A DNA stretch of 64,000 nt from Nitrososphaerota archaeon (lineage in GTDB: Archaea > Thermoproteota > Nitrososphaeria > Nitrososphaerales > JACPRH01), in contig JACPRH010000010.1 of assembly GCA_016190055.1 (NCBI GenBank), positions 46,497 to 110,496 on the forward strand, read 5' to 3'. Of the stretch, positions 1 through 37,682 are shown piece by piece. Under the pieces are notes generated by a model. That model was not told the origin of the DNA. It saw only the letters and a list, made by a program, of their open reading frames with translations, and searched no databases. Positions within the stretch are counted from its first letter, which is position 1. Each line of letters opens with the position of its first letter. A program made the position numbers and the translations under genes.

Positions 1-703
1 AGCTAGTAGGCTGCTCAGTCCACACGGCGCTAATCAACGCGTGATCCTTATCGAACGGGTCGAGCCTGATGAGCTGCTTGATTTTGAAGCCTGCAGCCTC
101 AATCTTCTCTCCCTCCTCCTTGAAGACCCTGTCAGGATCTTTCAGGGCGTCAATGCTCCTCGCCTTGACAATTAGGAGAAGACTTCCTCCTCCGGAGAGA
201 TAGCGTCGACAGTTCAAAAGTGCAATCTCGGTCTGATCCGGCTGCGCAATATCGCAGTAAACCACATCCACCTTACCAAAGACTGATCGGTACCGCTCAG
301 GCCGCCGCGCATCCTCCACTATAGGGATAACATTAAGTCGCTTCGAAGCAACCTGCTCCAGAAACTCTCTCGCGACACGCGGCGCCATCTCAACAGCGAA
401 GACTATCCCACTCTCACCCAGCAGATCCGACACGTGGCTCACCGTGGTCCCTGTCGAAGCGCCAAGGTACAACACCTTGACTCCCTCATAGATTGGAAGA
501 TCCTTCAGACCCTTCAACAAGGCTGCGGCAAGCTTGCTTCGAACCGGATCCCACATCCGATACTCAGCGCCATCCACCTCAATTAGCCGTTCACCGTAGA
601 CCTTAAAGCTTGGAGTCAGGTTTAGAGTAGCGAGCTTATCTTCGCCCTCGACCTTGACCCTTCTGAACCTCGCCTTGCCTACCCCAGCGCCTCTTTCTTC
701 CAC
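1..703 (-). CDS. flpA: Fibrillarin-like rRNA/tRNA 2'-O-methyltransferase, C-terminus runs off left edge
   Basis: Minus-strand translation includes ...KVYGERLIEVDGAEYRMWDPVRSKLAAALLKGL...VLYLGASTGTTVSHVSDLLGESGIVFAVEMAPRVAREF...VDVVYCDIAQPDQTE...; likely GTG start at 703 overlaps nop5 end; sits next to nop5. Confidence 0.92.
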   Translation of the reverse strand, partial: MEERGAGVGKARFRRVKVEGEDKLATLNLTPSFKVYGERLIEVDGAEYRMWDPVRSKLAAALLKGLKDLPIYEGVKVLYLGASTGTTVSHVSDLLGESGIVFAVEMAPRVAREFLEQVASKRLNVIPIVEDARRPERYRSVFGKVDVVYCDIAQPDQTEIALLNCRRYLSGGGSLLLIVKARSIDALKDPDRVFKEEGEKIEAAGFKIKQLIRLDPFDKDHALISAVWTEQPTS

Positions 704-1907
704 CTTGCCACCTCCTTTCCCCTCCTCTTCTCTCCTCTCTTTCAAAACTAGGCCTTTCCGTCGGTGCGGGCGCCTCACTGTACTTCTGCCTGATTTCCTC
801 GAACCTCTTATCCAAGTTCTCCTTCAACCCGCTCTCGCTGGTGCCGCGGTAATAGTCTATCCTAGCTGCAATCGCGATCTTTGCCGCTAACGAGCGGGCA
901 ATCTTCCCGCGCTGCCACCTTGGTGCAGTATGAACCGCCTGATGCTGGAAAATTATACCGTGCTTCGGAGGACGTGCCCCGGTGCGGAGAGCCCTGAACA
1001 ACGCCTTCTCAGCTCCAAGCACCTGAATCGTGCTTGCCGGTCGCCGTGCCAACTTGTCCAGTCCACCTGCCTTAGCAATCAACCTGGCCCCGATTGTGGC
1101 GCCAGCCACGGCTGTCACGTTAGGCGCAATGTGGCTCATCGTCTGCTCAACATGCTTATTCAGGCGATCCCGTATACCGGACATCCGCACCGCCTCTTCG
1201 GCGAGATCAAGGATTCTCTGGAGATCCTCATCTCTGAGGTCGCTTCCTCTCGAACGCTCTGCAGATGAGAGTATCTTTTCAATCTTCTCAGCTGGAAAAT
1301 CGAGCTTCTCCATCTCTTCCTTAGTAATGCTGTCACGGCGACCGAACTTTGCGACCAAGTTGACATAGGACTCAGGGCTATCAGTAATCCTGTCGAGCTC
1401 CGGGAAGTGAAGCCCATACCACTCTCGTACACGGGCTTCAACATTATTCAGCGTCCTATCAATCTCGTCGAGGGCCTGAACGGACTGGATGACTTGAAGA
1501 TCCGGTTTAGCCGCCATCTCCCTAAGCTTCAGACTCGATTGTTTCAGCGCGAAGTCACGGATAATCTTCTGAGCCTCCTCCTCATCCTTCGCCCAGCCCG
1601 CCTGAACCATCAACGCGGTCTTCCGGCTCTGCATCCGCTCAACCTCGTGATCCGAAAGAGAAGCCACTGTAAAACCTGCCTCTGCAGCGGCCTTCAGCAA
1701 CGGCTCTTCATAGACTTGGAAACTGTCGAAACCCTTCTCAACCGCCTCTGAAAGAAGCGTCTTAAGCAAGGGAATCATCTCACCGGACTCGATCCGCCTG
1801 TAAAGCTGAATCGCCTCACCTTCAGGGAACCGCTTTGCTACAATAGTCTCCATCGGCTTATCAAGAATCATGACGCCTGCCTCAGTAAGAAAGAGCCGAC
1901 CCTTCAA
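636..1907 (-). CDS. nop5: Nop5/Nop56-family C/D box sRNP core protein
   Basis: NOP-domain signature VTAVAGATIGARLIAKAGGLDKLARRPASTIQVLGAEKALFRALRTGARPPKHGIIFQH; basic C-terminal tail. Confidence 0.95.
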   Translation of the reverse strand: MKGRLFLTEAGVMILDKPMETIVAKRFPEGEAIQLYRRIESGEMIPLLKTLLSEAVEKGFDSFQVYEEPLLKAAAEAGFTVASLSDHEVERMQSRKTALMVQAGWAKDEEEAQKIIRDFALKQSSLKLREMAAKPDLQVIQSVQALDEIDRTLNNVEARVREWYGLHFPELDRITDSPESYVNLVAKFGRRDSITKEEMEKLDFPAEKIEKILSSAERSRGSDLRDEDLQRILDLAEEAVRMSGIRDRLNKHVEQTMSHIAPNVTAVAGATIGARLIAKAGGLDKLARRPASTIQVLGAEKALFRALRTGARPPKHGIIFQHQAVHTAPRWQRGKIARSLAAKIAIAARIDYYRGTSESGLKENLDKRFEEIRQKYSEAPAPTERPSFEREERRGGERRWQGGRKRRWGRQGEVQKGQGRGRR

Positions 1908-26955: not shown

Positions 26956-27217
26956 TATTAGTGCACACAGTAGGACGTAGATTTAATCTAATCGCCGTCT
27001 TGTTCACATATCGTCTTTCGGTACTGCTCGATTACTGCAATGATGTATGATGCGTTTCGGGAGATGTCTTGATATTCTCCTATTTTGTTTGAGCCTGTTC
27101 CACGCCATCTTTTCCATACATCTAAGAATTCACTATAACGAATAGCACGCTCAATACTACTGTCTTGAGGAACACCAATTATAGCGTCACCTGATATTCT
27201 GTTGATCTGGAATTTCT

Positions 27218-27545
27218 GGTAGTGTCCCAGTTACGTTATGAATTTAGTCCGATTTAGTCTTGACAAGGTCCAACAGCTTCTTTGAGGGCTTGTAAAGCAC
27301 CTTGGGCCTTCCTACCTTTCCCTGAAGTATCTCCTCCTTGATCAGCAATGTATCAGCCTCAAGATGCTTCAGATGAAATAGGACCGTCGACCTAGCCAAT
27401 CCTGTCTTCTCAACCAACTTTGGAAGGGTACGCGGTGAAGCCTGGGCACTTGGCAAAGCAGCCCCGCTATATTACGGCAACAACTATCAAGAACCATGCT
27501 TGTCTTCGTTATGGACTAAATTCATAACGTATCTGGGACACTACC
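27218..27545 (-). mobile_element. 328-bp insertion element (MITE-like) with 33-bp TIRs and 8-bp TSD
   Basis: Left ggtagtgtcccagttacgttatgaatttagtcc (27218-27250), right inverse of ggtagtgtcccagatacgttatgaatttagtcc (27513-27545), one mismatch; gaatttct directly repeated at 27210-27217 and 27546-27553. Confidence 0.93.
27244..27456 (-). CDS. ArsR-like winged-HTH ORF carried inside the insertion element
   Basis: LPKLVEKTGLARSTVLFHLKHLEADTLLIKEEILQGKVGRPKVLYKPSKKLL; stop codon lies in the TIR. Confidence 0.55.
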   Translation of the reverse strand: MPSAQASPRTLPKLVEKTGLARSTVLFHLKHLEADTLLIKEEILQGKVGRPKVLYKPSKKLLDLVKTKSD

Positions 27546-28020
27546 GAATTTCTTGGGCCGGTGTAAAGTAGTTACATAGTTTAATGTCTTGAAATAAGTC
27601 CAGACATCACTTGCTGTAAACGAAGCTCCTTTGCCTTGACTATCAATGATTGTCATAGTCGCATTAGATGACGGTTCTACTAAAGGGTAGAGACGCATCC
27701 CGCAGTTTTCGCAAAACCTGTTCTTAGCTTTGTACTGTTCATCAAAGACCTTTCAGCAATTTCGGCATTCAAACTTCATTAGAGTCACGTAATATTGTGG
27801 GCATCATTATCTGTTTGATATTAAAGGCTTCTCAAGCACTGCTATTGTGCGTCAGTTATGCATAGAGCGCCTTGACGGAGGCTTATCACATCGTATTACG
27901 CCGAATGTGCAGTAGCAGAAGATGTAATTAGAAAAGGGTTTAGGTAGCTCACGGTGGCATACTATATGTCGTCTATGGCACGTTCGAGGTATCGTCTTCA
28001 GCCAATTGTGAGCTTGCAGA

Positions 28021-37008: not shown

Positions 37009-37682
37009 CTAGATCCGCTTTAAACTCGCGTTCTGAATGATTGTCTTCCACTTGTTTTCTCCCTCTATCTTGATTCCAGCTGCCTCAGCTGGGGTTATCT
37101 TATTTGGCAGTCCTGTATGTTCACGTATGAAGTTGTGGTAAATCTCCATGCCTTCAATTACAGGAGAATTGTCTTTTTTGAGACCGCGAATGACTTTTTC
37201 CCGATCTCTCCATTCTCCATTTTGGCGTTCCATCTTGTTATTATGAACCTGTCCAGATAGCCTGATCTCTCTGATGTGTTCTGGGCTTTTCTCATCGCCG
37301 TAGGTGTCCCAGTACTCTTTACGGTGAGCATCGTGGAGGTTGTTTGCGCCATCGCTGATTAGAGTCTTGGGTTTCTTCTCAGCCTTAGCAGCTGCAATCC
37401 TATACATCGGTCTAACATCATCTGTTCCTTTGTGGGTTGATACTTGCTGAGCTAGTCGGAAACGGGTTTCATCATCCATCATCGCAAACAGATACTTCAT
37501 GTTGCCTTTGACTTTGATGTACATCTCATCCGTTCTCCACTCTTCTTTAGCAAGCTCGTCCACGTTTCCTTTTCTAATCCTGCTCTTTCAGCTGGTGTTT
37601 GACCGTCTAGTTCTGCGTGCGGCTTTATGAAATTGTAATTGATTCTCGCTCCCTCTGCTAAGTGAGTGCGCATAGTTTTCAA
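37009..37682 (-). pseudogene. DDE transposase remnant (two fused pieces, frameshifted)
   Basis: 37009-37563 WRTDEMYIKVKGNMKYLFAMMDDETRFRL...YHNFIREHTGLPNKITPAEAAGI; 37497-37682 in another frame RGLKTMRTHLAEGARINYNFIKPHAELDGQTPAERAGLEKE, itself a transposase C-terminus. Confidence 0.75.

Follow-up and report, generated by a model that had tools for sequence, protein, structure and literature searches.

A probable mobile insertion cassette of the Nitrososphaerales, with a self-bordered winged-helix regulator gene as cargo and putative exchange of IS1- and IS5-type ends

Mobile insertion cassettes (MICs), as defined in PMC3913671 and PMC3129680, are bounded by inverted repeats of a known insertion sequence (IS) family, generate a target-site duplication (TSD) and carry an unrelated passenger gene but no transposase gene; they include MIC231 of Bacillus cereus and the mic found with qnrD. 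The transporter ISs (tIS; PMC3129680) also harbour a passenger gene within IS ends, but they retain their transposase. A third kind of small element, the MITEs derived from IS1 or IS5, is ~0.3 kb long, has the terminal inverted repeats (TIRs) of a larger IS and a TSD and occurs in several copies.

We analysed a 64,000-nucleotide stretch of a contig of a Nitrososphaerota archaeon, hereafter the window, and found an element with inverted repeats matching those of an IS, a TSD, a non-IS passenger gene and no transposase. As for MICs, we presume that it moves in trans. It differs from them in that its cargo is a DNA-binding regulator gene with conserved inverted borders of its own, that it totals only ~0.3 kb, that its host is an archaeon and that its cargo also occurs within the ends of a second, unrelated IS family. 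In contrast with tIS, it lacks a transposase. Most probably, then, it is an MIC whose self-bordered winged helix-turn-helix (wHTH) regulator cargo is older than its carriers and whose ends were exchanged between IS1 and IS5 types at least once. Our literature search, the scope of which left out most subscription journals, returned papers on MICs, on tIS and on the mobilome of Thaumarchaeota; in these we found no description of the element, of a self-bordered regulator as cargo or of a switch between unrelated carriers.

The element, its insertion site and its copies

The element spans 328 bp, its 33-nt TIRs are 97% identical (32 of 33 positions), and the 8-bp TSD GAATTTCT is present on either side (Table 1). 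In a random 64-kb sequence, ~3e-10 repeats of 33 bp with at most one mismatch are expected within 3 kb of each other, leaving the TSD out of the calculation; thus, the pair is far beyond chance. The repeat search and the joining of the flanks therefore confirm the initial annotation, which had described a complete element with these repeats and this duplication. When the flanks are joined without the element and with one TSD, the minus-strand frame is stop-free across the junction (TTLHRPKKF followed by QINRISGDAIIGV), which indicates that the insertion broke a small ORF. The only ORF that fits inside the element is that of the wHTH protein, so that its description as non-autonomous also holds.

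Table 1. Coordinates of the features of the element and of the interrupted ORF in the window
Feature	Coordinates	Strand	Basis or remark
Interrupted ORF, 3' part (QINRISGDAIIGVPQ...QDGD-stop)	26988..27217	-	joined-flank frame
Left target-site duplication, GAATTTCT	27210..27217	.	flank reading
Left TIR, IS1-type, starts GGTAGTGTCCCAGTTACGTTAT	27218..27250	+	includes the last half-site of the cargo border; shared with the parent L040
3' border motif GACTAAATCGGACTAAAT, two direct repeats, 10-bp period	27242..27259	-	overlaps codons TKSD-stop
Winged-HTH ORF (70 aa), part of a gene for 82-83 aa	27244..27456	-	ORF list, profile searches, relatives, model
Out-of-frame remnant of N-terminal codons (MVLDSCCRNIAGLLCQ)	27450..27497	-	alignment to intact copies; 1-nt deletion
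5' border, one half-site GGACTAAAT only (two in most relatives)	27513..27521	+	alignment
Right TIR	27513..27545	-	inverted-repeat search
Right target-site duplication, GAATTTCT	27546..27553	.	flank reading
Interrupted ORF, 5' part, Cys-containing (FCENCGMRLYPL...HRPKKF)	27554..27750, start approximate	-	joined-flank frame

The interrupted ORF looks to be part of an integrated element with type I restriction-modification (R-M) genes and several nucleases. Positions 10591-37563 of the window form a probable integrated element or defence island that encodes a tyrosine-recombinase-like ORF, type I R-M proteins and Mrr-type, AHJR/HEPN, RusA and Exo5-like nucleases, several of them named by eye. A DDE transposase-like ORF is found at 37009-37563 in the same island.

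The element is not alone. Among 400 genomes from the order and 400 from the class, only a handful harbour it, with at least 13 copies in the window's own genome (G000) and five others of the same order. In addition to the window copy, G000 harbours those at C8:22456, C9 and C31, a diverged one at C42 and a remnant in C7; the others are in G020 (two, one truncated), G030 (three), G058, G399 and G410 (three). A degenerate relative is present in G075, and G406 encodes a distant homologue of the domain. The named records with the family are Thaumarchaeota groundwater MAGs and the archaeon MAGs YP1.bin46, FK2.bin78 and YF1.bin6. Each intact copy examined fills an inverted-repeat unit, mostly of ~310-380 bp, and the outer ends differ among copies (GGTAGTGTCCCAG, GGCTTAGTCCCA, GGTGTCCCTCGACA, GGTGCTCCCCC and GARCCTRTYTC). 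No relatives were found in viral contigs or in phages, and a plasmid search yielded only distant matches (35-39%). Two of the elements (L045 and L022) are closely downstream of tRNA-like sequences recognized by eye. We also noted in G000 a 187-bp unit (C32:71867-72053, L065) with perfect GAACCTATCTCAATA inverted ends, devoid of the HTH gene and of a clear duplication.

A regulator gene with its own conserved borders

The initial annotation had proposed a 71-residue HTH ORF ending inside a TIR. The wHTH nature of the product and the position of the stop codon, within the left TIR, are correct, but the ORF has 70 codons counted from a TTG. Intact relatives comprise 82-83 residues (MDACCKRI..LLCQ.GQSSPRSLAKLVEKTGLARSTVM.HLKHLE...GRPK.LYKP...TKSD). 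In the window copy, the gene start is the ATG at 27497, which the loss of one nucleotide near 27450 puts out of frame with the ORF, together with the first 16 codons. Several other copies also have frameshifts; that at G000:C8:22456, a sister copy 90% identical to that of the window, has one caused by an extra base in the same stretch. The broken HTH frame makes the window copy a probable dead passenger, although its ends look movable.

For an intact relative, AlphaFold2 predicts a winged HTH fold (mean pLDDT 79.7). The best profile matches are to Lrs14, SufR and Sta1 regulators, but they are weak and all under the cut-offs, with 30 bits against 90 for the best one, NF040939, and 21.8 against 22 for PF01022; the sole sequence match among solved structures is 2d1h. 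Thus, the protein resembles the archaeal wHTH regulators (Lrs14/AbfR2, Sta1, PDB 2d1h and 6cmv) by its fold and by weak profile similarity, while its scores, mostly far below the family cut-offs, place it on a separate, shorter branch. By those curated cut-offs, it does not qualify as a member of the Lrs14 or ArsR families. A homologous HTH domain forms the N terminus of a 493-residue protein of G406 (C64:24336-24557, L053; ORF 271-1752, minus strand), in which we read by eye two LAGLIDADG-like motifs, AWVGGLIQGEG and AWVGAIMQGEG; this protein has no match in Pfam or NCBIfam.

The dN/dS ratios of the cargo gene are 0.03-0.15 in most pairs and 0.25 in one, values that are only rough since dS is saturated. 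They show that the gene is under purifying selection, and they could also reflect past selection as a host gene. The element has the small size, TIRs, TSD and multiple copies of a MITE, but a plain MITE was rejected: unlike the MITEs of IS1 or IS5, it bears a protein-coding gene that purifying selection maintains and that the parent IS lacks.

The gene is framed by a border motif, GGACTAAATCGGACTAAAT, which consists of two direct repeats with a 10-bp period and is inverted at the two ends of the gene. At the 5' end, where the motif is non-coding and covers the likely promoter, its pairwise identity is 0.92, whereas the spacer next to it reaches 0.32. At the 3' end, identity at codon position 3 is 0.85 within the motif and 0.43 across the rest of the gene. 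Furthermore, the copy at G410:C38 has kept the second repeat, which is non-coding there as the frame ends at the first. The motif is thus conserved as DNA. In most copies, the motifs are symmetrically placed, 23-36 bp inside each end.

The diverged paralogous element at G000:C42 (L028, positions 1310-1816) codes for a 121-residue HTH protein with a Cys-rich tail and has ends of yet another type (CAGTCAATCAAAAAGTGG) with a 5-bp TSD, GATTA. Its border motif, AGACAAAAATAGAC, is different, but the layout is the same: the period is again 10 bp, and the motif stands in inverted orientation at either end and extends over the last codons. That motif and protein have changed together while the layout was kept is the best indirect support for the mechanism proposed below.

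Could this simply be an ordinary host regulator, captured by ISs several times independently, with the motif as its operator and mobility incidental? The wHTH family itself, the regulator-like matches and the location of the 5' motif at the promoter would fit such a history. However, all intact copies examined are within inverted repeats, the searches of the order and of the class (400 genomes each) detected no intact host copy standing alone, and an operator alone would not need a motif inverted at both ends. We therefore regard repeated capture as unlikely and favour a cargo that travels with its borders.

Ends of two insertion sequence families

IS1-family elements generate TSDs of 8-9 bp, and IS5-family elements TSDs of 3 bp. 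A relative, G313, harbours a full 1.2-kb IS1-family element (L040) with the TIR GGTAGTGTCCCAGTTATATTAGT and the 8-bp TSD TGAAAAGA. Its transposase, of the zinc-ribbon/HTH type, matches NF033558 (E 1e-7) and scores over the cut-off of PF03400. The window element has outer ends of this type, with a GG-start TIR and an 8-bp TSD, in agreement with the initial attribution of its TIRs to an IS; as there is no transposase in its 328 bp, we rejected its classification as an IS1-family IS itself. L040 is a full copy that could supply transposase. In the window's own genome, fragments of the parent's ends are found at the ends of contigs C55 and C26, which break there, and no complete cognate IS was found in the assembly (87.5% complete, 63 contigs). 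The transposase of L040 (1498-2628) is split over two frames near the run AAAAGGGGGG, which possibly reflects programmed frameshifting of the kind used by IS1, or else an inactivating mutation.

The initial annotation had viewed the element as non-autonomous, with a DNA-binding ORF kept or derived from a parent IS, which would amount to a MITE left after internal deletion of that IS. The match of the ends to an IS1-family IS and the N-terminal HTH of IS1 transposases are compatible with this scenario. However, the similarity between L040 and the window element is limited to the outermost ~16 bp on each side, and L040 contains neither the HTH cargo nor the border motif. Moreover, the cargo is found in two unrelated types of IS ends, neither parent of which encodes the HTH protein, and its weak similarity is to Lrs14/SufR-type regulators and not to transposase HTHs. 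Under the refuting condition set in the initial annotation, an HTH ORF without relation to any IS bearing the same TIRs, the origin of the HTH gene in a parent IS is thereby refuted, and descent by internal deletion appears extremely unlikely.

The same cargo with the same borders also occurs in two other genomes, where IS5-family ends and 3-bp duplications surround it. IS5-family elements of G412, G226 and G402 have GAACCTATTTCAAAAC TIRs (16/16) and encode an IS5 transposase (NF033580, E 1e-27 and 3e-24 for its two halves), and they are devoid of the HTH cargo and of the border motif. The cargo element of G410 starts with GAACCTATTTCGAAACTT, to be compared with GAACCTATTTCAAAACTT in an IS5-family IS, 17 of the 18 terminal bases being identical. 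Four of the five intact IS5-ended copies have 3-bp TSDs (GAA, TTA, CCT and TCT), and the TSD lengths thus agree with two types of transposases. Other IS5 copies, in G030 (L087) and G058 (L086), were rejected as parents because they have other TIRs. We also discarded the GAGCCTATCTCAAAA matches of G020 as cargo copies; they belong to a distinct MITE of ~240 bp (L066, L077 and L079), which shares the IS5-type ends, is devoid of the HTH gene and has 3-bp duplications in two of its three copies.

In the tree of cargo DNA, the IS1-ended and IS5-ended cargos split with a support of 88/93, so that one exchange of ends is enough. The presence of the same gene between ends of an unrelated family indicates that the cargo apparently changed carrier and kept its own conserved borders. 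By sequence and TSD length, a swap of ends between the IS1 and IS5 families is shown.

The ends of the copies of G020, G058, G399 and G000:C9 can be provisionally assigned to the IS1 type by their GG start, their TCCC core and, where readable, their TSD length. In this group, TSDs are of 8 bp for the window element, 9 bp in G020 and 8 bp, offset by 3, in G058. The ends GGTAGTGTCCC, GGCTTAGTCCC and GGTGTCCC have GG...TCCC in common and 8-9 bp TSDs, and divergence of the ends within this group is therefore likely. Searches for a parent IS yielded only single, unpaired matches for the G058-type ends (GGTGTCCCTCGACA) and only C9 and C31, each at a contig end, for the C9-type ends (GGTGCTCCCCCTTTGACTG). 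Extending such divergence to all copies would give a single transposase lineage, whose TIRs drifted apart between hosts with no swap at all. This is very unlikely in our view: TSDs are of 3 bp in the GARCCTRTYTC group, whose ends agree with those of an IS5-family IS at all but one of 18 terminal bases, and IS1 and IS5 transposases belong to different families.

One copy, G000:C8:22456-22780 (L002/L029), has an IS1-type end on one side only. Its other side is of different sequence and contains ACAACTCCTTAAT, which is also found, in a different order, in the end of the G020:C11 element. This copy is possibly a hybrid, or else truncated.

Proposed working of the element and its significance

From the match of the ends, we infer that the window element is transposed in trans by an IS1-family transposase; ends of the other type would be recognized by an IS5-type enzyme. 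In our working model, the wHTH protein would most likely bind the border repeats at its promoter and at the far end of its gene. Binding at the promoter would repress its own synthesis, and binding at both borders would place the protein on each subterminal region of the element, where it may influence the access of transposase. Cargo and borders would predate the carriers, with the outer ends swapped between IS1 and IS5 at least once.

The protein might instead aid transposition, by binding to the subterminal motifs and pairing the ends or recruiting whichever transposase is present, which would make carriers switchable. The symmetry of the motifs near both ends of most copies and the occurrence of the 10-bp direct-repeat spacing in the diverged paralogue as well would be in keeping with such a role. 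In contrast, copies with a broken HTH gene have intact ends and TSDs, and the protein is thus probably not needed in cis; we consider an active role doubtful. It is somewhat less likely still that these elements represent a distinct minimal class, in which a border-occupying HTH hitchhiker would help IS1, IS5 and a third type of transposase, with 5-bp TSDs, to accept it and would so switch carriers.

We thus favour an MIC, the closest known kind of element, the novelty residing in the self-bordered regulator as cargo and in the apparent carrier switch. MICs are usually described as a useful gene placed between the ends of a single IS. In the present case, a tiny gene for a DNA-binding protein with matching sites at both its borders appears to have been under selection while its transposon ends were swapped between two unrelated IS families, and the C42 paralogue repeats this layout with a different motif and a third type of ends. 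Provided that the protein indeed binds its borders, the element would amount to a self-regulating mobile gene of very small size. With 83 residues, a ~20-bp site and ~20-bp ends, it would offer a tractable system for how a non-autonomous element changes helper and for what a regulator inside an element does to transposition.
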